NCBI GenBank assembly: GCA_017938925.1
Contig: JAGBAO010000004.1
Coordinates: 55,403 to 119,402 of the forward strand
Origin: Bacteroidales bacterium
GTDB taxonomy: Bacteria > Bacteroidota > Bacteroidia > Bacteroidales > UBA932
DNA length: 64,000 nucleotides
Direction: 5' to 3'
The position numbers were made by a program, and so were the translations under genes. The first letter of the stretch is position 1. The number at the start of each line of letters is the position of its first letter. The notes under the pieces were generated by a model, which saw nothing but the letters and a program-made list of their open reading frames with translations, ran no database searches and was not told the origin of the DNA. Positions 4,638 through 48,450 of the stretch are shown one piece after another.

Positions 4638-4668
4638 CAAAAATAAATTAAATTCAACAAACCTCAAA
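4638..4668 (-). promoter_or_regulatory. Predicted minus-strand promoter in gltX-rpiB gap
   Basis: Read on the minus strand: TTTG (4668-4665), 19 bases, TATTTTTG (4645-4638). This is a full match to the Bacteroidetes promoter pattern. It points at the small ORFs at 4367-4573, and no other gene there could use it. Confidence 0.45.
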
Positions 4669-7515: not shown

Positions 7516-8925
7516 TCATTTTATATATTTCTGCATCTTGGAAGTCACCTTCTGAATATAGTCCTGCGTCTCCGCATGAGGAAGATTCCTCTTGAGATGA
7601 CTGAACAGCTGGTCATAAGACATCGAGTTTATAGTAGGGATAGCCTTGGATATGTTGGTGGTCCCGTTTATTGACCTGCTGACATTTCCTGCACCTGTAT
7701 TATATGCAGCAATTGCACAGAGCATACGGCACCTGACATCCGTCACCTTGGCAAAGGTTGTGGACATCAGAAGTTTAAGATATCCTGTTCCCAGCTGTAT
7801 GTTATTGTTCGGATCGAACAGGAAATCCGGTGATGGAATCCTGTCCTCCTTATGAACATATCTGTAGGCATCACGTCCTCCGGACTTAGGGACCAGCTGC
7901 ATGAGGCCATAGGCAGGCACCCAGGACTGAGCTACCGGATTGAAGGCCGACTCCTGTTCCATGATGGCATAAATCAACGGCTCATCCACCGAGTACTTTG
8001 CAGAATGACTGCTCACCATCTGCTTGAACTTCTCCGCACGTTTAGGAATGTGGTCTTCAACAAGTTCCATCGTTATGGCCACAATATTCTTCACACCCTC
8101 AGAAGTGCTGACCGGCTGGACAGACGGAGTCTGCGAAGCGACCACAGCTGCAGGGACCTGTTCCAGAGCCTTCTGCTGTTCCTTTCTCAACCTTTCCTCT
8201 TCAATAGCCCTCTGCCTTGCCAGTTCCTCCTCTTTCCTTCTTTCCTCAGCCTTCGCAGCCATAGAAGTTCCTGCCGGCTTTACGGCAGGGCGTGGAGACT
8301 TGTCCCGGGACAGGTCCAGACTCTTTCCTCTGGACGGAGCCGGTGCCCCAGGAGATGCCGCCTCAAATGGTTTTGGAGCAGAGTGTGTCCGGGTTGCCAC
8401 CGTTGAAGACACACCATACCTGCTCAAGTCCAGCTGCCCGTCAAGAAGAGGGGTGTCCGATACCGGACGATCCGGAAGTACACTTGAGTCGAAGCCGCAT
8501 GTGCTACCACGGCTGGACAACAGACCGCTGACAGCATTCTCCAGTTTCTTCCTGACCGTTTCCTGATCATCTGCCGGATCTACAAGCACCTCGACCGTCA
8601 CCTTGCCAGACTCCCAGTTCACAGACGTTCTGCTGGACTTGTCATCGGAATACTCCACCCATTCCTTACGTGTGCTCTCGACCATCACCGAGTCGCCCCA
8701 GGTCTCCATGACCTTGTCACGAAACTTTTCATATTCCTCGAAAAGCTGGGCTTCATACTCAAGATAATCAGCAAGAGCTGCATCTGCAGAATCTGCAAAC
8801 TCCTTTCTTATGGCGTCAAGTTCCTGACGAGCCTTGGAGAAGGAGGCGTCAAGATCGTCAGCAGTCTGAGCGTACAGGCCGACTGCTGACATCAGGAGCA
8901 TTACAGATAATATGAAATATCTCAT
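7516..8925 (-). CDS. MltC-like lytic transglycosylase
   Basis: Predicted exported peptidoglycan lytic transglycosylase. Residues 1-20 are a signal peptide (GLYAQ). Residues about 30-135 resemble the N-terminal domain of MltC (EEYEKFRDKVMETWGD). A proline-rich linker and a charged coiled coil follow (about 180-255), then a family GH23 (SLT) catalytic domain from about 295, with the probable catalytic Glu325 in MEQESAFNP, then AYGLMQLVP and IAAYNTGAGN. MltC of E. coli is a lipoprotein; no lipobox is seen here. It is the last gene of the zinc-ribbon operon, 10 bases after its neighbour, which suggests a wall-opening or wall-sensing role in that system. Confidence 0.85.
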   Translation of the reverse strand: MRYFILSVMLLMSAVGLYAQTADDLDASFSKARQELDAIRKEFADSADAALADYLEYEAQLFEEYEKFRDKVMETWGDSVMVESTRKEWVEYSDDKSSRTSVNWESGKVTVEVLVDPADDQETVRKKLENAVSGLLSSRGSTCGFDSSVLPDRPVSDTPLLDGQLDLSRYGVSSTVATRTHSAPKPFEAASPGAPAPSRGKSLDLSRDKSPRPAVKPAGTSMAAKAEERRKEEELARQRAIEEERLRKEQQKALEQVPAAVVASQTPSVQPVSTSEGVKNIVAITMELVEDHIPKRAEKFKQMVSSHSAKYSVDEPLIYAIMEQESAFNPVAQSWVPAYGLMQLVPKSGGRDAYRYVHKEDRIPSPDFLFDPNNNIQLGTGYLKLLMSTTFAKVTDVRCRMLCAIAAYNTGAGNVSRSINGTTNISKAIPTINSMSYDQLFSHLKRNLPHAETQDYIQKVTSKMQKYIK

Positions 8926-8935
8926 ATGTTTACCA

Positions 8936-10852
8936 TTAATTTGACTCTAAGGCCTTGGCTGCCTCGGCATGTCCCAGGCCAGCCGCCTTCTTGATCCAGA
9001 CCTTGCCCTGGAGAGGATTCTTCGCAACAGATCCCTTGCCTGTCGAGAGCATGAGTCCCAACTGATAGCATGCCTCGGCGTTTCCGGCTGTTGCTGCCCT
9101 TTTGAAAAGGTCGTGAGCAAGTTTGTAGTCACCCTTTTCATATGCTTCAAGGCCCTGCTTGAGACTTTCGTCCTGAGGACCGGCAGCCGGAGCCGTTGTG
9201 GCCTGTGCAGCCTTTTCAGCCATAGTAGGCTGCTTTGTCGGTTCAGCTGCAACTGGAGCAGCTTCCTTCACCGGCTCTGCCTCTTTCACAGGAGCAGCCT
9301 CGACCGGTGCCGGTTCCACCTTTGCTTCAGGAGCGGCAGCCGGTTTCTCGGAAACCGGCGCAGATGCTGCCGGGGCAGATGGTTCCTCAGTCTGATCACC
9401 TGTGCCAAGGAAATATATTCCAGCCACTGCAGCGACAGCGACCAATGCTATCCAAAGTCCTGTCTTTTTCTTCTTCGGCTTGGATTCCTGAACCTGTGTA
9501 AAGGATGTCACTGTAGGATTCAGAGGGCCTCCTGCCGAATTAAGAATATATCCCTTTGTGGAAGGTGCTTCCTTTGTCGCCTGGGATGTGCCGGCTGGTG
9601 CAGCTGTCTGCTGCGTAGGCTTTGAAGGCTGTGCAGAAGGAGCTGCTGGAGCCGCAGGACGTGCAGGTGCGGAAGCCGGACGTGCAAACAGCAGTTTTTC
9701 AATTCCCGCAGGTTCCCCATCCTTTCCGGAAATCACGTTCTTGAGCCTTTCCCTGAATTCCTGAAGACAGCGTGCTTCTGTTTCTACTGCACAACTTATG
9801 TCGTTCCTTGCATCTGCCAGACAGGATTCATCCTTAGTATCCATATACTGGAGATATTCCATGCAGGCCTGGGCCAGCGTGACATCATTAATACGGTCAG
9901 GATACTTTGACTTTGCAGAATCCACACAAAGGACAGCCTCTGTCGCATTCTTTGTCATGAATGCTGCAACAAAACCCCAATATATCTGCCAGAAATCATC
10001 CACAGTCGCCGTCTTGAGATCCTTGAGATAATTCTCTGGAGCAGAAACTGCCGACAGCAGTCTGTACCAACACTGCACCGTCTCCTCTTCTGTAAGCTTG
10101 GCATATGCAGACACCTTGTTCAGACAGGAAGACACGGTGATTTTCCCATCCTTGAGCTGCTTTATGGTCCTGTCAAAATCCTTCTGCTGGATTTCAGTCA
10201 GTCTGTCCTGCTTGTCTGAGACTTTCCTGCGCAGCTTGATTTCGATCTCCTTCATCTGTTCCTCAGTCAGTTTAAGAGAAGAAGCCTTCCCATCCAGCAC
10301 GGAGCGGAGTTCGTTATCAATCACTCTTGATCCGGTCACCATCTCCTTATAGAACTTCTCGTAGGCTTCAACAGCCTTCTTCTCACAGGCCGCACAACGA
10401 AGCTTGGACTCATCATAATACTGTTCGGCGACAGTCTTGCCGCACACCGGGCATACCACGCTGGAGGTCACAAGCACCTTTCTGCCGGAGATCTCGCATA
10501 CGACACTGCGCTTTGTGTCATCCTCTATCTTGGTGACATTAGAAATATTTGTAGTGTTGGTGGTATGATTATGATTGGTGACACTATTGTCGCTGAATGT
10601 CTCGACTGCACCTATCTTGGTCCTGTTCTCTTCTATCATACCCATTCCGTCAGCAATCGAATGGCCAGCTCCAGAAGCCGGCGAAGGCTGTGCAGCCGGA
10701 GCGGATGAAGGCTTCACCGCGGTTTCCGACACCGGTTCCTCCTGAGCGACCGGCAGGATCTCCGATTCACACTCAGGACAGAAATTCTTATTTCCAACCG
10801 CCATAGGCACCACTTCCCTGCCACATGACGGACATTTTACATTTGCGCTCAT
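8936..10852 (-). CDS. Zinc-ribbon, single-helix, Sel1-repeat protein
   Basis: Unrecognised as a whole. Residues 7-28 form a zinc ribbon (CPSC...CPEC), and a second pair of CxxC motifs lies at 134-137 and 153-156. A charged, probably helical region follows, then a basic stretch (KPKKKK) and one transmembrane helix at about 466-483. An Ala/Pro/Glu-rich linker leads to a C-terminal Sel1/TPR-like region from about 560 (GLEAYEKGDYKLAHDLFKRA). The helix implies a cytoplasmic zinc-ribbon half and a periplasmic Sel1 half. I chose the ATG at 10852 because the longer frame begins inside the upstream gene and the ribbon starts right after this ATG. Spacing to the upstream stop is 7 bases. Confidence 0.8.
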   Translation of the reverse strand: MSANVKCPSCGREVVPMAVGNKNFCPECESEILPVAQEEPVSETAVKPSSAPAAQPSPASGAGHSIADGMGMIEENRTKIGAVETFSDNSVTNHNHTTNTTNISNVTKIEDDTKRSVVCEISGRKVLVTSSVVCPVCGKTVAEQYYDESKLRCAACEKKAVEAYEKFYKEMVTGSRVIDNELRSVLDGKASSLKLTEEQMKEIEIKLRRKVSDKQDRLTEIQQKDFDRTIKQLKDGKITVSSCLNKVSAYAKLTEEETVQCWYRLLSAVSAPENYLKDLKTATVDDFWQIYWGFVAAFMTKNATEAVLCVDSAKSKYPDRINDVTLAQACMEYLQYMDTKDESCLADARNDISCAVETEARCLQEFRERLKNVISGKDGEPAGIEKLLFARPASAPARPAAPAAPSAQPSKPTQQTAAPAGTSQATKEAPSTKGYILNSAGGPLNPTVTSFTQVQESKPKKKKTGLWIALVAVAAVAGIYFLGTGDQTEEPSAPAASAPVSEKPAAAPEAKVEPAPVEAAPVKEAEPVKEAAPVAAEPTKQPTMAEKAAQATTAPAAGPQDESLKQGLEAYEKGDYKLAHDLFKRAATAGNAEACYQLGLMLSTGKGSVAKNPLQGKVWIKKAAGLGHAEAAKALESN

Positions 10853-10859
10853 ATCTATT

Positions 10860-12668
10860 CTAATTGAGTGGAGTTCCACAAGTCATACAAAAACGGGCTT
10901 CGCCTGAAAGCGGAGTTCCGCACTGAGGGCAGAACTTCCTTCCGGCCGGTTGCTGAGGCTGCTGCTGAGGATAGCCATATGGCTGTGCAGGCTGTCCCTG
11001 AGGAGAATAACCATGATTCATCCTGAGGAGCTCCTTCATGTCGTCCACACGTGCCTGATTCAGACGGTTGATCTCCTCCTGACGTGCACGTTCTGCCTCG
11101 ACCTCGCGACCCTTTCCAAGAGATTCCGCCAGTTTGGCGGCAGCCTCAGGAGAAAGGTTCTCATTTGCCGCTATCGCCATAAGCTGCTCCGGAGTCAGGT
11201 CACGCGACATACGATATTTTTCAAGCTTAGCCCTCTGCATGGCCTCAAGAGCCTCCATATTTCTCTTATGCTCTGCAGCATCCTTCTCTTCCTTGATTCT
11301 CTGGAGCTCCTTGAAACGGTCGAATTCATCGTCCTTCTTCCTCTTCTCGAACTCATAATCCTCGTCACGTACCCTCTTTTCATATTCCCTTGTCAGGGAT
11401 GCAAGTTCAAGTTCATCCTTCTTCTGCATCATTCTGAAGACATGTCCCCTCTTGTGTTCATTGAGACGGATATTGTCCTTCAGTGCATTGAGGTCTTCAT
11501 TACGGATAAGGCCTGTCCTCTCTATATCTGCCAATGCCTCCGCTATCTGAGACTCGCTCTGGGCTTCGCGTATTCTCTTCTCACGGGAAAGGACTGTATA
11601 GAACTGCTCCAGTTCATCCTCTGCCAGAAGCTTGTCCTTGTTCACCTCCTGAAGACTCCTCAACAGAGCCAGTTCCGAACGTGCTTCATTGATCTGCTGG
11701 GCATTCTGGGCTGCTGTAAGACGGTTCTTGAATTCGTTGGTCCTCTCAAGATACTCAAGCTCCCTGCCTGTCAGATAAAGTTCCGAGTTCAGAGCACGGA
11801 ACCTTTCAAGTTCCTCACTTCCGACACGGATCTCCTCGACAGATGATATGCCGACCCCGCCAAGTTCCGCAGTCAAGGCTACAAGCCTTTCCGAAATCTC
11901 CGACTTGACGATATCGGTCAGACCAGACTCGGAGACTTCGACATCCGCCAGTACATCCCGGAGCACCTTCTCCACCTTAGGTGCGAGCAGCCTGACCAGT
12001 TCCGCAGTCGTCATGGATGTACGGTCCAGCATATATCTTGCGGCAAACAGCTGCATGCTGCTGATACGGAGCATCGCGCTCACTCCCACATTCACATCCA
12101 GATTTCTTGTCGGAACTGTCATCGGAGCGAATTCCTCAGGCGTGCTTGCAGCACCTCCGAATATCACAGGGAAATCGCCGTCCCTGACAAGAAGGATGGA
12201 GCAGGTCTTTAACTGTTCCTGACCTTCTGCAACATTTTCACTGCTCCCGGCAGAACGGAAGATGTTGTTTATGAAACCTCGTCCATCAGTCCTCTGAACA
12301 TCCGCCTTTTCAGGGAAACTGTATATTCCGCTGGAAAGCATCGTCAGATCATCGGCATTTGTCCTGACAAGGACCCTGGCCCCTTCATTCACAATCAGAC
12401 CAGCTGCATCACTGTACTGAGAGAACTCCTTCTCCGGTATAAGCCTGGCCACCTGCCCGGGCTGTACGTTCCACATTATATGGTTATCGACATTATCCAT
12501 GACTGTCGGAGCAGCCTCAGCTGCAGGAGCGTTGACCTGTTCCTGAGGTTCTGCCGCATCCTGATGCACCGGTTCCGGTGCAGGAGTTTCCTCCACAATC
12601 CTATAGCCACATTCGGTACAGAATCTATGACCGTCAGCTATCTCTGCATTACATTTAGGACAATTCAT
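10860..12668 (-). CDS. SPFH-like coiled-coil protein with zinc ribbons at both ends
   Basis: Predicted scaffold protein. Residues 3-20 are a zinc ribbon (CPKC...CTEC). Residues about 65-290 resemble the SPFH/virion-core-like domain found in YdjI-type proteins. A long charged coiled coil covers about 290-480, followed by DLTPEQLMAIAANENLSPEAA, which is typical of that family. A Gln/Pro-rich linker then leads to a second zinc ribbon (C580, C583, C594, C597). There is no signal peptide, so it probably acts at the inner face of the membrane. Ribbons of the same type occur in both neighbouring genes, which suggests that the three proteins form one complex or share a partner. Domain assignment is by pattern and was not searched. 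Confidence 0.78.
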   Translation of the reverse strand: MNCPKCNAEIADGHRFCTECGYRIVEETPAPEPVHQDAAEPQEQVNAPAAEAAPTVMDNVDNHIMWNVQPGQVARLIPEKEFSQYSDAAGLIVNEGARVLVRTNADDLTMLSSGIYSFPEKADVQRTDGRGFINNIFRSAGSSENVAEGQEQLKTCSILLVRDGDFPVIFGGAASTPEEFAPMTVPTRNLDVNVGVSAMLRISSMQLFAARYMLDRTSMTTAELVRLLAPKVEKVLRDVLADVEVSESGLTDIVKSEISERLVALTAELGGVGISSVEEIRVGSEELERFRALNSELYLTGRELEYLERTNEFKNRLTAAQNAQQINEARSELALLRSLQEVNKDKLLAEDELEQFYTVLSREKRIREAQSESQIAEALADIERTGLIRNEDLNALKDNIRLNEHKRGHVFRMMQKKDELELASLTREYEKRVRDEDYEFEKRKKDDEFDRFKELQRIKEEKDAAEHKRNMEALEAMQRAKLEKYRMSRDLTPEQLMAIAANENLSPEAAAKLAESLGKGREVEAERARQEEINRLNQARVDDMKELLRMNHGYSPQGQPAQPYGYPQQQPQQPAGRKFCPQCGTPLSGEARFCMTCGTPLN

Positions 12669-12675
12669 ATCTGGT

Positions 12676-14442
12676 CTATTTAGATGTTAATACTGATTCT
12701 ATCTTTCCTTCCGTGGAGGTCGTCACCCTCCACAGCGTCTTTACGGAATATGCCGATCCGTCGGAAGGTTCGCTATACGAGAACAGCAGACGCTCCTGTC
12801 CGTTGGCATATTTCACCCTCTTTATCGTCTGCGGTTCACGTGGGGCAAGGCCATACTGGGCATACAGCTCCTTACCTATGGCATTGCTGATCGCCTGGAT
12901 ATTTGCGTCAACCGCACTGCGCACCCTGTCCAGAAGAGACTGTTCCCCTGCCGGTCCGGACTTGATGACCTTTGTCTCATACCCGATAGGGAAATCCTTC
13001 GGAGCAATGTTTCTGGACAGTTTCCGAGCTGACTTTGACGAATCAAGTGCGATCGCCGCCCTCAGGGACGGATCTCCGAACAGGTTGAACTCTGCCAGAG
13101 TCGTCGCTCCTGTATCTGAAAGGATGCCGTCCTCTCCGAAAAAGGATTGACGCGCCAGCACCATAGCCTCTCCCGCAGAATACCCCGTGAGAAGTCCGAT
13201 GACAAATGTAGCACAAATAACGTCAGCGCTGCTTGCCGGAGGACTCGGCATTCCGAAAGCTATTCTGGAGGACGCCAGACCTATGACGGTCTTATGTGCA
13301 AGTCCGGACTGAATCATGGAACGGAGGGTATCATGTCCTATGAATCTTCCACCATAGCATGCCTCTGCCACAAAGATGTTGTATCTCTGAGGAATCCTCA
13401 TTGCAGAGGTAGGGAATATCTCGCGATACTGATGAGTCTTGGGAGGGAACTCACCGCAGTATCCGCTGTCCGAAGGACGGTCGCTTCCATGAAGATTCAG
13501 GAATATAAGATCCGTATCCTTTTCCATTACGGAAGCGATATGTTCACTGGTGACTTCGGGTCCGAGCATGACATTTCCATAGCAGAAACGTCCTGAAATG
13601 TTGCCCCTGTCCGGAAGCATTCCCAGTTCGTTGTACGGAGACATAAGGTGCGCAGTCAGCTCCTTCCAGTGAGGATCGCACTGGGAATATACCTTCGTCA
13701 CCGGCACGCCGCCTCTGACATCGAGGGCGTTCTGGAGATAGTTCGTAAGGTAGGACACGTCCGCATCTGTCGGCACCGGGAGCCTTCCCACCAGAAAATA
13801 CATCTCCTGCTTATATAACTGCTGCGACTCCAGTTCACTTTGAGTGTGAGGACCATACGGATATGCGTACAGCAGGTCCGTTTCTATATCATCGTCCCCC
13901 AGCTCAGGATCATTGATGTAATGATTGATCGCAGGAACCGGGACAATGTCGTGTCCGCCTATGATGAACAGATAGTTTGACTCAGGAAGTCCCTTCTCAC
14001 GTTCCAGGCATATTATGTCATAGAGTATGTGCTGATAATCGACCCATGTGGCTCTTTCTCCCAAAGAGACGCGGTCAGACTTACGTCCTGCACCTTTTGA
14101 CCGGAAGACATAGTCGGAAGCATCTGCCAGCCTGTAATCAATGTCCGCAGAAGCCATTCCGTCCGCATACTGTTCAAACAGACGTTCCAGAACTTTCCTG
14201 TCTGTTCCGAGCTTCATTGCCAGAGCCGAAATATTGGTGAATATCACGCCGTGACGTGAACAGTTCCTTGCTTTTACTTCCTGGTCCTGTTCACGCATAA
14301 CGTGAGCAGAAGTTTCAGATGACGGCACAGGAGAGACCCCATGCACCGGAGGAGCAGGCTTATGCTCTATACGAGCACCGCACTGCCCGCAAAACTTTTC
14401 AGTTCCGGACAGAGCGGTTCCGCAGTTATAACAGAATTTCAT
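12676..14442 (-). CDS. Zinc-ribbon caspase-like (C25-type, clan CD) protease
   Basis: Predicted cytoplasmic cysteine protease. Residues 4-21 are a zinc ribbon (CYNC...CGQC). The main domain shows the clan CD layout of gingipain-like C25 peptidases: LFIIGGHDIVP at 158-168, the probable catalytic His318 in FLNLHGSD, the probable catalytic Cys362 in VAEACYGG, and FNLFGDPSL at 452-460. Unlike secreted gingipains it has no signal peptide, no propeptide and no sorting domain; a zinc ribbon takes their place. It sits 7-8 bases from its neighbours in the operon, between the SPFH-like gene and an LPP20-like lipoprotein. A role in regulated proteolysis, as for other bacterial caspase-like proteins, is inference. 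Confidence 0.8.
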   Translation of the reverse strand: MKFCYNCGTALSGTEKFCGQCGARIEHKPAPPVHGVSPVPSSETSAHVMREQDQEVKARNCSRHGVIFTNISALAMKLGTDRKVLERLFEQYADGMASADIDYRLADASDYVFRSKGAGRKSDRVSLGERATWVDYQHILYDIICLEREKGLPESNYLFIIGGHDIVPVPAINHYINDPELGDDDIETDLLYAYPYGPHTQSELESQQLYKQEMYFLVGRLPVPTDADVSYLTNYLQNALDVRGGVPVTKVYSQCDPHWKELTAHLMSPYNELGMLPDRGNISGRFCYGNVMLGPEVTSEHIASVMEKDTDLIFLNLHGSDRPSDSGYCGEFPPKTHQYREIFPTSAMRIPQRYNIFVAEACYGGRFIGHDTLRSMIQSGLAHKTVIGLASSRIAFGMPSPPASSADVICATFVIGLLTGYSAGEAMVLARQSFFGEDGILSDTGATTLAEFNLFGDPSLRAAIALDSSKSARKLSRNIAPKDFPIGYETKVIKSGPAGEQSLLDRVRSAVDANIQAISNAIGKELYAQYGLAPREPQTIKRVKYANGQERLLFSYSEPSDGSAYSVKTLWRVTTSTEGKIESVLTSK

Positions 14443-14450
14443 GCTGTCAA

Positions 14451-15005
14451 TTATTTTCCGGCATTCACTGCCTTCAGGAAAAGTTCATTCAGAAGTTTCT
14501 CGTCAACCTTCACATTAGAAGCCTGAGCATCATTCATCGCTTCAAAAAGCTTCTTGATGAATTCCTCACCTGAGAGCTCAAGGACAACATAATTGCGATA
14601 CATACCCTTCTCATCCTTAGGCTCCCACTGGTCGAAGACAGGACGGGCACCTGTGAGTACCTGCTCTGACACCAGATTGGTCTTCTGGCTGAGATATTCC
14701 TTGGACTTGGCTACTTCGCCTTCCGAAAGTGAGACACAATAGTCATCGATTGTGGTCTTGACTGCAGAATTGAGCATCTGAGCCAGCTGTGATGAAGCTG
14801 AAACCACAGCCTTCTTCTTCGCTGTCATTTCGGAGTCAGACACACCCATGGCCCAAGCACGAAGCACGTTCGGAGCATTAAGAAGATCCGCACCCGGCTG
14901 GATATAGGTTGCAACAGGCTTGGTAGCCACTTTTTTAGAAGCACCACAAGACACCAGCAACATGGCTGCCAACATCATCAAAGCAATCTTTTTCATAATA
15001 TTCAA
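14451..15005 (-). CDS. LPP20-like lipoprotein
   Basis: Small lipoprotein, 184 residues. The signal peptide ends in a lipobox (LLVSC), so the mature protein is lipid-anchored. The mature part contains the LPP20-type pattern: LRAWAMGVSDSEMTAKKKAVVSASSQLAQML, split by short gaps, which marks proteins that often accompany CsgG-like channels. The first ATG at 15005 is followed by another at 14996 (MKKIALMM); the second may be the true start. It lies 3 bases after the larger LPP20-like gene and 8 bases before the protease gene. Function unknown; an envelope partner of the CsgG-like protein is plausible. Confidence 0.75.
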   Translation of the reverse strand: MNIMKKIALMMLAAMLLVSCGASKKVATKPVATYIQPGADLLNAPNVLRAWAMGVSDSEMTAKKKAVVSASSQLAQMLNSAVKTTIDDYCVSLSEGEVAKSKEYLSQKTNLVSEQVLTGARPVFDQWEPKDEKGMYRNYVVLELSGEEFIKKLFEAMNDAQASNVKVDEKLLNELFLKAVNAGK

Positions 15006-15008
15006 TAT

Positions 15009-16346
15009 TTAAAGGTTTATATTCAGTTTCTTCAGAGCCTGAGGAAGCTGCACATTGACACGCTTCATGAGCTCTCTTGCACACATGGCCATGGTCTGCT
15101 GTTCCGATTTCGTCACAGGGACAAGCACCCTGACCTGAGGGACATTATAATTCAGCAGTTCCTTCTGATTCAGATTGTCATATATCTTGAGGGTCAGGCC
15201 TGCATAACATTCGTTCATGTCATAAAGTTCTCCTGCAACCGTACCACCCACATCAAATGTCGTGGACAGAGTGATGAACAGATTTGCCGAAGTGTCCTCC
15301 GTCAGATCGAAATTATTGTTCACAAGGATAGCTCTGACCTGTCTGTCGCAGCTCTCGATATCATTCTTCTCGACCATGTAGTATGCAGTGTAGTTACTGC
15401 TGAGCAGTACAAGGGTGAATGTGGCGCCTGGCCATGCAGATGTATCGATCAATTCACGATATGAAGCAGGGACGTCCTCTATGAAGGACTCGTCTATTCT
15501 TACTTCGACCGTCTGAACCGGCAGTTTTGAGGTCACATTGGTTACATAAAACACAGCGGTACCGGTATAGTCTGTCTTTGTCTCAGGAGTGGTAACTCCA
15601 TCACCTGCAGTGAAAGAAGCCTTGAGAGTCACATTTGGAATCACCTGCCCGGCCTTGCTGAGACACACCGCAAGCGGTTCCCCGCACGGCTTGAACGCCT
15701 CGACTCCCACCTCGGTGACGTTCTGCACCAGTTCAAGACCGCTGAACACTCCGATGCAGGCATTATACAGCTCTGTCGGAAGATCGATCTTACGTCCCTC
15801 ATACTGAGCAGCAAGATCCAGATACAAATACGGTTCGATGGCCTCCAGTCCCTTTGCATAAAGCTTCACGGCATTTGCATAACTATGGGAAGCTTCTGCA
15901 GCCTGGCCTTTCGAATAGTAGTCCAGACCCAGTTCCGTACCTTTCTTCTTCTGAGCGGCCACATGCTTCTCATACTTCTTCCTGTCCAGCTCATAATACA
16001 CGTAGTAATGAGTGGCAGACTGGTAGGAATCCTTAAGCTCCTGTCCCTGTATGTTGGCAGCCATCTTCGACTTCACCTTCTCCTCAAACAGTTCCTTTGA
16101 GCGTCCGTCGACATCCAGAGTCTGCATGAAGGACGACGTCTCGATGCTCACGCTTATCTGGGAAGCTATATCCATCATCGCATTGGACACGGCCTTGTTC
16201 CTGCAGTCCGGGTCAGACAGAGGGGCCATTCCGATTCCAAGGTACTTGCCCTCGGCAACAGGCCTTCTGGACACCCACTGAGGCTCCTGGGCATATAGTC
16301 CGGCAGCAATCGCTGCAAGACACAATGACAATAAGATCTTCTTCAT
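15009..16346 (-). CDS. Exported LPP20-domain protein
   Basis: Exported protein of 445 residues with a cleavable signal peptide (GLYAQ at 17-21). Residues about 22-130 form an LPP20-type domain: a Trp-Val start, a GIGMAPLSDPDCRNKAVSNA pattern, then an amphipathic helix and a YYELDRKKYEKH end. A helical TPR-like stretch (YYSKGQAAEASHSYANAVKLYAKGL) and a beta-rich C-terminal part follow. It is 2 bases after the DUF6175-like gene and 3 bases before the smaller LPP20-like lipoprotein. Homologues of this layout are common in Bacteroidetes CsgG-type clusters, but I know no tested function. Confidence 0.7.
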   Translation of the reverse strand: MKKILLSLCLAAIAAGLYAQEPQWVSRRPVAEGKYLGIGMAPLSDPDCRNKAVSNAMMDIASQISVSIETSSFMQTLDVDGRSKELFEEKVKSKMAANIQGQELKDSYQSATHYYVYYELDRKKYEKHVAAQKKKGTELGLDYYSKGQAAEASHSYANAVKLYAKGLEAIEPYLYLDLAAQYEGRKIDLPTELYNACIGVFSGLELVQNVTEVGVEAFKPCGEPLAVCLSKAGQVIPNVTLKASFTAGDGVTTPETKTDYTGTAVFYVTNVTSKLPVQTVEVRIDESFIEDVPASYRELIDTSAWPGATFTLVLLSSNYTAYYMVEKNDIESCDRQVRAILVNNNFDLTEDTSANLFITLSTTFDVGGTVAGELYDMNECYAGLTLKIYDNLNQKELLNYNVPQVRVLVPVTKSEQQTMAMCARELMKRVNVQLPQALKKLNINL

Positions 16347-16348
16347 GG

Positions 16349-17614
16349 CTAAAGTATCGTTATGTATATGGTTGTACCGTCAAAGCGGCTTGCGCAAGGA
16401 ACTCCTACCGTATCATTCAGCCAAGCCTCGATCATGAAGCCGAACTGGGCCGCATCCATGGCAAGGCCGTCTGCATCACGAGGAGGGACGATCACATAGT
16501 CGAAGATCACGCTCGTGTCGACGATTCCCTGCAGATGATATTTACCGTTATGAGAATTCTTGCGGACCCACTGGTGGATGAGGTTTGAAAGCGGATAGTT
16601 GTTCGGGCCCACACGGTCGCTCATTGTCATCGACGAAGCTCCGTCTATGGCAAACTGAAGGGTCACCTTCTTGCCGTTCGAGGCCTGTCTTGAGAAGTTC
16701 TTGCAGATGTCATCCAGGAAAGCAGGAAGGTTATCCTTGACAGCATATGAGCACAGAGCATCAGTGGAAGCCGTTGCAAAACGCTTGGTTATGGCATCCT
16801 TGGAGGCAAGAACACTTCCGGTCGCAGTCTCATAGGCCTTCATGATGAGAGACACTCTGGATCCTTCCGAAGTCACGTCCTTTCTGAGATCCACAACCAC
16901 ATACACATCCGAGCCTGAATTCATCAGCAGCTGCTTGTCATTCGAATCGGCATCATTCGCTCCGAATTCAGCATTCCTCTTGACTGCTGCCAGCTTGGCC
17001 TCGACATCTACAGTCGTGACGTTACGTGACTCAAATCCGTCCTGAACCTTGCTGACTGCAATCCTGCGGTCAAAGTCTGCTTCCAGGATGGATGCATAGG
17101 TCTCACCGTCCCGCTTGTATGGAACGACCATGATGGTCGGCAACACCATTCCTTCCTCAAACTCCACATCACTGTACTTGACTTCCGGCTCACGTGACTT
17201 GTGCAGCTTGTTCCTCTCAAGATCCTTGATCAGATTGCTGTACACGATAGTGATCCTGTAGTTTCCCTGATAGAGTTTGTTGGCATTCTTCTCCGGCTTG
17301 CCGAGTTCCTCATTGGAGCGGACAAAGAACGGATAGCGGGAATTCAGGAACATGTTGACATACTCCTTGTTGTCTGTGGTCACAAGAGGTCTTCCGTCAT
17401 TGATGCCGTCCACACCTACATAAAAAAGAGTATAGAACAATGATGCTGCCGCATTGTCGGCAGTCCCCTTTGACTTTTCAGCCACTCCCACTGAGGTAAA
17501 TGTGGCCGCCACTCCGTCAGATGACTCATAGGTGACTATCTGGGGATATGTCTGTGCCGAAAGAGCAAAGACCGAAAGACACAGAAGAGATAGAATGATA
17601 AGCTGTCTTTTCAT
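16349..17614 (-). CDS. DUF6175-like exported protein
   Basis: Exported protein of 421 residues with a signal peptide (VFALSAQ). The central part around PTIMVVPYKRDG and SGSDVYVVVDLRKDV resembles the Bacteroidetes family DUF6175, of unknown function. That assignment is from memory of the family pattern and was not searched. The fold appears alpha/beta with a repeated beta-rich C-terminus. It follows the CsgG-like gene after 62 bases that contain a strong hairpin, and precedes the LPP20 genes by 2 bases. Its place in the operon suggests an envelope partner of the CsgG-like protein. Confidence 0.65.
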   Translation of the reverse strand: MKRQLIILSLLCLSVFALSAQTYPQIVTYESSDGVAATFTSVGVAEKSKGTADNAAASLFYTLFYVGVDGINDGRPLVTTDNKEYVNMFLNSRYPFFVRSNEELGKPEKNANKLYQGNYRITIVYSNLIKDLERNKLHKSREPEVKYSDVEFEEGMVLPTIMVVPYKRDGETYASILEADFDRRIAVSKVQDGFESRNVTTVDVEAKLAAVKRNAEFGANDADSNDKQLLMNSGSDVYVVVDLRKDVTSEGSRVSLIMKAYETATGSVLASKDAITKRFATASTDALCSYAVKDNLPAFLDDICKNFSRQASNGKKVTLQFAIDGASSMTMSDRVGPNNYPLSNLIHQWVRKNSHNGKYHLQGIVDTSVIFDYVIVPPRDADGLAMDAAQFGFMIEAWLNDTVGVPCASRFDGTTIYITIL

Positions 17615-17639
17615 TTGTTTATCGTTTTAAATTGGCCAG

Positions 17640-17665
17640 CGTAGCCACCTCCCGGTGGCTACGCC
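17640..17665. promoter_or_regulatory. Perfect hairpin between CsgG-like and DUF6175-like genes
   Basis: Arms 17640-17650 and 17655-17665 pair perfectly (11 bp, GC-rich) with a 4-base loop. No T-run follows on the minus strand, so it is not a classical terminator. It may stabilise the upstream message or set the expression ratio between the first gene and the rest of the operon. Confidence 0.6.
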
Positions 17666-17676
17666 GTATATCATCA

Positions 17677-18546
17677 TTAAAGAGCGTTCAGGAAACCTCC
17701 CATCTTACCAAGGACATCCACCTTCTCCTTGGTTACCAGACGAAGTTCATGTCCGGCCTGGAAAGCAGCCACGATCTCCTTTGCACCTGAGACGAACTTG
17801 CAGTTTGACAGGTCATCAGCCATAACCTCCTCGATGGAGAGGACACCGATCTGAGTCTCTGCTTCACGTCCTGCAATCGTCTTGACCTCGAAGACCTCGC
17901 ACTTCTGGCCCTTTTCAACACCGGAAGCTGCTCCAAGACTGATATAGCAGTTCTTTGCCTTGCCACCTTTCATCTCACCCATTTCAACGATAACTCCCTT
18001 GACCTTGAAATACTTTGACACGAATACCTTCATATCTTTCTCTGCCTTACGCAAAGTTGCAACTGTAGCCTCCTCCGAAGTCGAGCCTGTGCTTCCTGTA
18101 AGGTCTGAATATGTATAGCTCTCCGCTCCTACGAGTGTTCCGTCCTCTGCATTCACCACCTTGAGGGAATATACCACATTACCATTGTAGTATACACTAC
18201 CATCGTCAGTCACCCTCTTGTCTGCACCGATCTTCGAAGCTACACCTGTGACGATGTAATTGGCACCCAGAGTCTTCATGGCTCCCAGACGGGCTGTCTG
18301 ATCCTCCATGGCCATCTCTGACGAACGGCGGTCAGCCTCAAGTGAAAGCGAGGCTTCAGTTTCAACATCGATAAGATTTACGCGATTAGTTGCCGCAAGG
18401 CCGGCAATCACATGACCTCTCAGGGCAGATACGCCAGCATCCGTGCATGAAGGAGAAGTGAAATAATCTACAACCACAACCGGTTTCTGCGCATATGCAC
18501 AAAGGCACATGAGCGCTGCAGCGATAGAGCTTACAATCTTTTTCAT
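17677..18546 (-). CDS. CsgG/HfaB-like curli-type transport protein
   Basis: First gene of the operon. The signal peptide ends AYAQ; I see no convincing lipobox, whereas E. coli CsgG is a lipoprotein. The mature part follows the CsgG pattern: VVVDYFTS at the start, a DVETEASLSLEADRRSSE helix, TLGANYIVTGVASKIG, and a strand leading to YSLKVVNAEDGTLV. A C-terminal extension from about 185 contains a beta-rich region (GVIVEMGEMKGGKAKNCYISLG) as in other Bacteroidetes homologues. CsgG itself is a nine-subunit outer-membrane secretion channel; whether this protein forms a pore is not shown. A good promoter lies 45 bases upstream. Confidence 0.82.
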   Translation of the reverse strand: MKKIVSSIAAALMCLCAYAQKPVVVVDYFTSPSCTDAGVSALRGHVIAGLAATNRVNLIDVETEASLSLEADRRSSEMAMEDQTARLGAMKTLGANYIVTGVASKIGADKRVTDDGSVYYNGNVVYSLKVVNAEDGTLVGAESYTYSDLTGSTGSTSEEATVATLRKAEKDMKVFVSKYFKVKGVIVEMGEMKGGKAKNCYISLGAASGVEKGQKCEVFEVKTIAGREAETQIGVLSIEEVMADDLSNCKFVSGAKEIVAAFQAGHELRLVTKEKVDVLGKMGGFLNAL

Positions 18547-18590
18547 AACGTTAGTTCAATTGTTAATTAATGTTAAGGTTAATGATTCCT

Positions 18591-18622
18591 CAAATTTAAT
18601 TATTCCACTCTCTTTTCGCAAA
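18591..18622 (-). promoter_or_regulatory. Promoter of the CsgG/zinc-ribbon operon
   Basis: Read on the minus strand: TTTG (18622-18619), exactly 20 bases, TAAATTTG (18598-18591). This is a full match to the Bacteroidetes promoter pattern, 45 bases before the CsgG-like start. No other good promoter was seen inside the operon. Confidence 0.7.
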
Positions 18623-20407: not shown

Positions 20408-20439
20408 CAAATTTATCTTTTTTTTAGCATACTGCCAAA
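20408..20439 (-). promoter_or_regulatory. Promoter of corA
   Basis: Read on the minus strand: TTTG (20439-20436), 20 bases, TAAATTTG (20415-20408). It has the same elements and spacing as the CsgG operon promoter. Confidence 0.65.
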
Positions 20440-26872: not shown

Positions 26873-26902
26873 TTTGACATTCAAATATTTTGTCTATCTT
26901 TG
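26873..26902 (+). promoter_or_regulatory. Promoter of rplY-pth
   Basis: TTTG (26873-26876), 18 bases, TATCTTTG (26895-26902). It lies 127 bases before the rplY start and leaves a long, structured leader. Confidence 0.65.
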
Positions 26903-29704: not shown

Positions 29705-29738
29705 CAAAGATACTATATCTTTTGGTAAAACGAACAAA
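29705..29738 (-). promoter_or_regulatory. Predicted promoter of the PCMD-like gene
   Basis: Read on the minus strand: TTTG (29738-29735), 22 bases, TATCTTTG (29712-29705). The spacing is slightly longer than in the other promoters here. Confidence 0.45.
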
Positions 29739-41025: not shown

Positions 41026-41056
41026 CAAAGTTACAAATTTTCGCCCAACTCGCAAA
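41026..41056 (-). promoter_or_regulatory. Promoter of the metal operon
   Basis: Read on the minus strand: TTTG (41056-41053), 19 bases, TAACTTTG (41033-41026). A start site near 41019 would place the ATG at 41016 almost at the 5' end, which favours the start at 41004. It overlaps the upstream region of the divergent sppA promoter. Confidence 0.6.
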
Positions 41057-48419: not shown

Positions 48420-48450
48420 CAAATGTACGAATAAAATCAGAATAAACAAA
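48420..48450 (-). promoter_or_regulatory. Promoter of rimP-nusA-infB
   Basis: Read on the minus strand: TTTG (48450-48447), 19 bases, TACATTTG (48427-48420). A full match, 62 bases before the rimP ATG. Confidence 0.65.

Follow-up and report, generated by a model that had tools for sequence, protein, structure and literature searches.

The 64,000-nucleotide stretch of contig JAGBAO010000004.1 from a Bacteroidales bacterium analyzed here (the window) contains a cassette of eight minus-strand genes, named A to H from the promoter-proximal end. Four predicted exported proteins (A–D) are followed by three zinc-ribbon proteins (E–G), among them a C25-family protease and an SPFH-like protein, and by a lytic transglycosylase (H). 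An earlier sequence-only reading of this DNA had recognized eight genes in this place, and all of the open reading frames (ORFs) were present. It had counted seven of the eight genes as spaced by 10 bases or less; six of the seven junctions are this close, with A–B as the exception (gaps of 62 bases for A–B, 2 for B–C, 3 for C–D, 8 for D–E, 7 for E–F, and 10 for G–H). At the F–G junction, the GTG start listed at 10879 gives a 20-base overlap and the ATG at 10852 a 7-base gap. Because the relatives of G begin at this ATG in the alignment, nine codons on, it is probably the start, and the overlap with F would then disappear. The G+C content of the cassette was 50.6%, against 51.0% for the rest, and third-position G+C was slightly lower (50–59%, compared with 55–71% in nine other genes).

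The single good promoter of the sequence-only reading was found ahead of gene A. It conforms to the pattern TTTG-N18-22-TANNTTTG, which we take to be the Bacteroidetes promoter pattern and which occurred at seven sites in the window, where 0.27 were expected; none of 100 shuffles reached seven. A scan of the window with this pattern revealed no further site inside 7516–18590. The other promoter-like sites lay at 4638–4668, 20408–20439, 26873–26902, 29705–29738, 41026–41056, and 48420–48450. A scan for sigma-70 promoters returned 11 sites, compared with 10.9 in shuffles; with a count equal to that of the shuffles it was uninformative, and this promoter type was dropped in favor of the Bacteroidetes pattern. 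Spacing and promoter together support the view that the eight genes form one transcription unit.

Table 1. Features of the cassette and of related loci, with predicted products. Coordinates without a locus name refer to the window.
Feature	Position	Strand	Description
Promoter	18591-18622	minus	TTTG-N20-TAAATTTG; sole site of Bacteroidetes-type pattern in the unit
Gene A	17677-18546	minus	Exported FlgT/LpoB-like protein, 289 amino acids (aa)
Gene B	16349-17614	minus	Exported DUF6175 protein, 421 aa
Gene C	15009-16346	minus	Exported LPP20-domain protein, 445 aa
Gene D	14451-15005	minus	LPP20-like predicted lipoprotein, 184 aa; starts at TTG, or at the ATG at 14996
Gene E	12676-14442	minus	Zinc ribbon and complete C25 cysteine protease, no export signal, 588 aa
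Gene F	10860-12668	minus	SPFH-like domain and charged, coiled-coil-like stretch (by eye) between two zinc ribbons, 602 aa
Gene G	8936-10879	minus	Zinc-ribbon protein with a further CxxC pair and a single membrane helix (474-492) ahead of a C-terminal Sel1 region; probable start 10852
Gene H	7516-8925	minus	Exported lytic transglycosylase, MltC-like, 469 aa
A-D + H locus	L116:4173-9755		Natural locus without E-F-G at the MATE/ygjP site; D and H 18 bases apart
Gene x	L024:11145-11432; L025:9234-9530; L023:4024-4338; L029:13993-14253; L030:13430-13666; L191:10264-10518		Also in L021 and L022

Profile hidden Markov model searches, which the sequence-only reading had proposed for each protein, placed B, C, E, the F ribbons, G, and H over the cut-offs and left A and D without such a match. 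The three N-terminal four-cysteine ribbons of that reading were all recovered as cysteines in E (C4/C7/C18/C21), F (C3/C6/C17/C20), and G (C16/C19/C34/C37, with a second CxxC pair at 143/162); in the window copies of E and G the ribbon match fell below the Pfam cut-off. The E row from genome G181 begins within the ribbon, where its contig starts.

The domain that the sequence-only reading had called a clan CD His/Cys protease belongs to the C25 (gingipain) family: E matched Peptidase_C25 with 30.1 bits (Pfam cut-off 23), and all 11 family members matched at an E-value ≤0.1. Residues H318 and C362, which we take to be the catalytic pair from what is known of the C25 family, were invariant in all eight aligned proteins, and N316, G319, D189, R220, and D457 were invariant as well, including in the five proteins from outside the cassette. 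These five comprised one under the cut-off (L176), two over it (L177 and L124), and two others annotated as C25 only. No N-terminal hydrophobic stretch, i.e. no export signal, was found in E, and a hydrophobic stretch over the helix threshold appeared in one of the 11 members. By sequence, E is a complete C25 protease. A solved-structure search with the E profile yielded ribbon-type and chance matches and no protease chain.

The relatives of E outside the cassette came from rhizobial plasmids (nine records) and from one other genome of the phylum, G595, whose C25 protein scored 66 bits and had no F-like neighbor (L124). None of the five that were read had a ribbon, or an F-like or annotated SPFH neighbor. 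Stand-alone C25 or C25-like peptidases of the rhizobial plasmids (L176:7740-9308, L178:7755-9278, and L179:7743-9287) lay near radical SAM and ferritin-like genes, with a tryptophan halogenase also nearby in L176 and L178 and a small ORF adjoining in L178 and L179. These loci are possibly peptide-modification clusters with their own protease.

Protein F carried a second, C-terminal ribbon as the sequence-only reading had stated, and its ribbons passed the Pfam cut-offs; the C-terminal one was absent in two of 11 members (L020 and L030). When the SPFH region of F was compared with a profile of YdjI-type proteins, the score was 37.6 (E-value 0.0002), and the best of 100 column shuffles reached 26.5. 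This comparison used 27 of 30 YdjI loci, the other three having been missed by the sequence filter, and was chosen after a whole-protein run, in which F scored 34.0 against 14 YdjI-type proteins (probability 11%) and seven other cassette families scored 12.7–22.1. PF13421 matched F in one of 11 members at an E-value ≤0.1, below its cut-off. A solved-structure search with the F profile returned ribbon-type and chance matches without an SPFH chain, and an NCBIfam scan returned ribbon-bearing families without an SPFH model. The coiled coil was judged by eye only. Based on the profile comparison, F is likely a distant homolog of the YdjI-type SPFH proteins. Of the 149 genomes of the order, 35 had proteins of this type (PF13421) over the cut-off (L126-L155), the genome of the window not being among them; five viewed to the C-terminus had a QQxGPF/Y stretch, presumably GYF-like, and no zinc ribbon there.

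Protein G agreed with its earlier description as a membrane helix with periplasmic Sel1 repeats. A single hydrophobic helix was present in 10 of 10 aligned members, with basic residues (lysines) mostly on its N-terminal side, and therefore the ribbons are predicted to be cytoplasmic and the Sel1 region periplasmic. Sel1 scored 35.7 bits in the window copy (cut-off 30.7); of five G proteins scanned, those of the window and L030 passed, those of L022 and L029 fell short of the cut-off, and for L020 no Sel1 was listed. In genome G343, G is broken into two ORFs (L024:11447-12148 and 12282-12713), through decay or an assembly error. Protein H was MltC-like in its domains, SLT (91.8 bits) and Mltc_N (39.3 bits) both passing the Pfam cut-off; its score of 190 bits was under the 375 of the NCBIfam MltC equivalog, so that the narrower assignment did not stand. 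The window copy of H has no lipobox, and E323–S326 and F328–P330 were invariant in all eight aligned rows.

Export of the first four products was borne out by prediction. The window copies of A, B, C, and D, like that of H, start with a hydrophobic N-terminal stretch, and in D the cysteine C20 was invariant in 10 aligned rows, nine of which satisfied the lipobox rule. The CsgG-like channel proposed for A found no support in these searches: the CsgG domain PF03783 had no match at an E-value ≤0.001 in the genome of the window, and models for LpoB and FlgT matched A instead. At an E-value ≤0.5, LpoB matched nine, FlgT_C seven, and FlgT_M one of 10 A-family members; the window copy matched LpoB only, with 19.5 bits (under the Pfam cut-off of 22.3), and the best solved-structure relative of the A profile was an FlgT chain (E-value 0.0029). 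Distant A-like proteins near other DUF6175 genes (L122 and L123) passed PF03783 in both cases and matched LpoB, one over and one under the cut-off. A probably belongs to the wider LpoB/FlgT/CsgG superfamily. Protein B, described earlier as DUF6175-like, lay far over the cut-off of PF19672 (201.8 bits, cut-off 23), with 46–71% identity to nine other aligned relatives.

Of the two LPP20-like proteins that had been proposed, C was confirmed by PF02169 (41.2 bits, cut-off 25.9), its window copy being without a lipobox. The kinship of D came from profiles: hhalign gave 80% probability of an LPP20-like relationship to C, the LPP20 model matched two of 10 members at an E-value ≤0.5, and no Pfam match over the cut-off was obtained for the window copy. 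CsgG-like folds in B and C, read by eye, stayed unproven; the profile comparison of B with C, like that of A with B, aligned the signal peptide alone. Elsewhere, DUF6175 genes have CsgG/LpoB-like genes and further small genes for apparently exported products as neighbors, with no E-F-G (L121:5287-8560, L122:8884-11076, and L123:8685-10999), which suggests a second envelope gene set not yet described.

The distribution of the cassette was followed through E in several overlapping draws of genomes. In 149 genomes of the order there were four matches, three of them long (window, G078, and G111); in 199 genomes of the family, 13 matches with six long; in 61 genomes of the genus, three were found. 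A profile search of 395 genomes of the phylum gave 64 matches with only the window's own at full length, and a scan of a genome collection gave nine loci with four full-length relatives, one being G078 again. Ribbon-only matches were excluded (one of the four genomes in the order, seven of the 13 in the family, five of the nine loci in the collection, and, of the 64 in the phylum, every match except those of the window and G595), leaving a combined total of 13 genomes with full-length E. The F profile was found in three of 393 genomes of the order (E-value ≤1e-10), the same three that hold E.

E and F adjoin in all 13 genomes, and G comes next in each of the 12 in which the contig continues (that of G792 ends within F). 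The sequence-only reading had depended on the zinc-ribbon trio occurring with the A–C genes, and in 12 of the 13 genomes A, B, and C accompany E-F; the thirteenth (L030) has a DUF6175 gene nearby (329 bits). H adjoins the set in nine of 10 loci where it is visible; in L027 it lies on the opposite strand with its own promoter. Two arrangements were distinguished. The first, A-B-C-D-E-F-G-(H), is found in the window, L027, L028, and, as far as its contig extends, L190, and the second, H-E-F-(x)-G-A-B-C-D, whole or partial, in nine other loci; in L029 a weak D-like gene leads, and in L030 only E-F-x-G and B are visible. Gene x (78–104 aa, with SKSEG invariant in five aligned sequences and nothing notable in Pfam) separates F from G in eight of the nine second-type loci and was not found in the window, L027, or L028. 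The expectation that the genes stay together across Bacteroidales thus held within 13 genomes and two arrangements, and failed as a statement about the order: the cassette is rare and patchy and no fixed Bacteroidales feature. Its standing as a conserved gene unit, judged from gene neighborhoods, can be considered secure.

A full promoter site precedes A in the window, L028, and L116, H in L024 and L027, and E in L030; in L021 it precedes an 87-aa ORF ahead of H, the apparent start of H. No site was present within 250 bases before A in any of seven second-type loci examined. The promoter appears to follow whichever gene comes first in the cassette. Counting against this are L020, L022, L025, and L029, which have no full site before the first gene, and L027, where only -7-like boxes and no full site precede A.

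Several comparisons bear on mobility. In five of the nine MATE regions read in the genus (L113, L114, L115, L119, and L192), MATE lies directly beside ygjP, i.e. the site is empty; L116 holds A-D and H, L118 and L120 have other genes or another order, and L117 is cut by a contig end. Genome G786 combines an empty MATE/ygjP site (L192) with a second-type cassette elsewhere (L191). The window and G218, of the same genus, share 85% identity in PNPase, 34% in E, and 47% in B, while G343 and G199, of different genera, share 77% in PNPase, 92% in B, 84% in A, 82% in C, 79% in F, and 72% in E. Among the window, G795, and G796, PNPase is 95–97% and E 59–65% identical. In the midpoint-drawn E tree, these three and G078, from another family, stood apart from the rest with support of 100/100, and G218 was placed beside G163, G181, G199, and G343; PNPase, unlike the E tree, placed G078 with G111 and G797. 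These conflicts of identity and tree indicate transfer, or unevenly lost old copies, together with fast change. They speak for horizontal spread of the cassette between genomes, with uneven loss of old copies as the alternative.

We tentatively consider that this is a horizontally moving, two-module cassette which builds an envelope-spanning complex, most likely for envelope surveillance and repair; the reading is favored here, with the doubts somewhat heavier than the support. A complex of this kind is in itself likely. Conservation of the neighboring genes, the domains, the one promoter, and the predicted membrane sides, all legible in the sequence, are on firm ground. The SPFH-like protein F would oligomerize on the cytoplasmic face of the inner membrane, the zinc ribbons of E, F, and G would bind the three together, and F would confine or gate the C25 protease E. 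SPFH proteins are thought to confine or gate other membrane-linked proteases. G would span the membrane once and present its Sel1 end to the periplasm; A, C, and D, of the FlgT/LPP20 kind, would form with B an assembly on the outer-membrane side, and the transglycosylase H would trim the wall to make room. A disturbance at the A–D side could then be relayed via G to F, freeing E onto membrane-bound or cytoplasmic substrates. This placing of the parts is supported by the N-terminal hydrophobic stretches, the D lipobox, and the single G helix.

Two known systems resemble parts of the cassette. The SPFH protein YdjI of Bacillus subtilis lacks a membrane anchor and carries a zinc finger close to its C-terminus, YdjG and YdjH bring YdjI and PspA to the membrane, YdjI is needed to place PspA, and loss of YdjG or YdjH leads to misplaced wall synthesis (PMC8581546). 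With PspA-YdjGHI, the cassette may share an operon of a zinc-finger SPFH protein and membrane partners that place it, linked to wall synthesis; it differs in having a C25 protease in place of PspA, extra N-terminal ribbons, and the exported proteins A–D and H. G supplies a membrane-integral partner within the operon, all 10 aligned members having one helix. In Vibrio, FlgO, FlgP, and FlgT build an outer-membrane-linked ring in the flagellar motor, and a Sel1 motif is present in MotX (PMC7990780, PMC9093738). Possible counterparts of the Vibrio H and T rings are the FlgT-like A, the LPP20-type domains of C and D, and the Sel1 end of G, as in MotX; in the cassette, the Sel1 region belongs to a protein that also has a membrane helix and a cytoplasmic ribbon. 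FlgP belongs to the LPP20 family. To our knowledge, DUF6175, SPFH, and the protease have no counterpart in the Vibrio rings, and we know of no flagellum in the host group. The cassette looks like halves of PspA-YdjGHI and of the Vibrio rings combined, and would be a member of neither.

SPFH genes also stand beside protease genes in the pairs HflK/C with FtsH and stomatin with STOPP, where the protease is a membrane metallo- or serine protease; the cassette has a soluble, ribbon-bearing cysteine protease of clan CD instead. With other C25 peptidases, E shares the complete domain and the conserved His and Cys, and it differs from them in lacking an export signal and in its N-terminal ribbon. A literature search, with subscription papers outside its scope, found no described system matching the cassette. 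Its parts have relatives, and the combination matches no system found. A bolder proposal, which we regard as doubtful, is that of a new kind of bacterial machine, a mobile and modular signaling-protease complex that spans the envelope. Its cytoplasmic gingipain-family protease would be assembled on an SPFH cage through a zinc-ribbon code, and a Sel1 stalk would link this assembly to a non-flagellar FlgT/LPP20 outer-membrane ring, turning damage outside into proteolysis inside.

A number of observations weigh against a surveillance complex of this kind. The SPFH assignment of the sequence-only reading came out weak: Band_7 scored 18.1 bits in the window copy of F, under the Pfam cut-off of 23.6, at an E-value ≤0.1 Band_7 matched two and Band_7_1 one of 11 members, and the probability of the F–YdjI profile match was 45%. 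Because seven of 11 F members, the window copy not among them, have a hydrophobic stretch over the helix threshold within the SPFH region, F may contact the membrane on its own. PspA/IM30 (PF04012) was over the cut-off in none of the 13 cassette genomes, some of them incomplete, with one weak match in G343 and the search control positive in nine of 14 genomes; the YdjI parallel is incomplete since PspA is missing at the cut-off in all 13. Up to three candidates per genome were scored in the phylum search for E and up to two in the order search for F, and some relatives may therefore be missed. Genome G789 (74% complete, no E in the genus search) holds open A, B, C, D, and H at the usual site without E-F-G, and DUF6175 genes occur also in other settings. 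A broken B in L116 was ruled out, as tblastn found one open stretch covering residues 1–420 of 421. Such a locus therefore argues for two modules, of which the envelope part exists without the protease part, and together with the other settings of DUF6175 it implies that E-F-G was added on, or was cleanly lost there. Patchiness, finally, suits a conflict system equally well.

Abortive-infection defense would be the role of such a system: A–D and G would sense a phage insult to the envelope, F would assemble, and the C25 protease would cut host proteins so that growth stops. The patchy distribution, the empty sites in close relatives, the signs of intergenus transfer, and the fast change of E in the three genomes with 95–97% identical PNPase are all consistent with it. 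We nevertheless consider it unlikely. In PADLOC, six of the eight cassette proteins were unmatched at an E-value ≤1, with weak matches for G (LmuB/PbeC) and F (TniQ) and the flanking genes not scanned, no E relative was found in 50,697 phage records, and none was confirmed in a viral-contig scan. A set with exported proteins, a lipoprotein, and a wall enzyme would also be unusual for a defense system.

A–D (with H) and E-F-G might instead be unrelated modules that share a promoter and are joined only by traveling together. The locus of G789 points this way, as do four contigs with DUF6175 genes without E-F-G (L121, L122, L123, and L125), and in all three DUF6175 contigs scanned a neighbor carried CsgG or LpoB over the cut-off. 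E-F, however, have a DUF6175 gene nearby in 13 of 13 genomes, and both gene orders hold the modules together; the joining was therefore kept, or made more than once, and mere co-travel appears quite unlikely.

We rate as improbable a machine for secretion or a surface structure, with A–D as an outer-membrane ring, H opening the wall, and E processing cargo before export. The FlgO/FlgP/FlgT ring aids passage of the Vibrio flagellum through the outer membrane (PMC7990780), and the wall-cutting enzyme adjoins the set in nine of the 10 visible loci. However, no ATPase, pilin, or known channel domain was found by Pfam among the cassette proteins (cargo was not sought in the flanking genes), the genome of the window gave no match to the CsgG model, and E lacks an export signal. 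The least probable role is control of wall synthesis, in which the LpoB-like A acts on a penicillin-binding protein, H cuts, and E-F-G switch the pair, although LpoB matches nine of 10 A proteins at an E-value ≤0.5 and YdjG/H loss misplaces wall synthesis in Bacillus (PMC8581546): Pfam found no penicillin-binding protein in the cassette, and the protease would be superfluous. FlgT_C, which LpoB lacks, is moreover matched by seven of 10 A proteins.

If the surveillance and repair complex is real, the cassette would connect a cytoplasmic protease with the outer membrane and need neither a two-component system nor a sigma factor for it, and proteins of the flagellar H-ring type would gain a non-flagellar role. 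A zinc-ribbon scaffold with a caspase-clan protease would then be spreading among gut bacteria. Ready comparisons for experiments exist in both natural gene orders, in the empty sites, and in the A-D and H locus without E-F-G.

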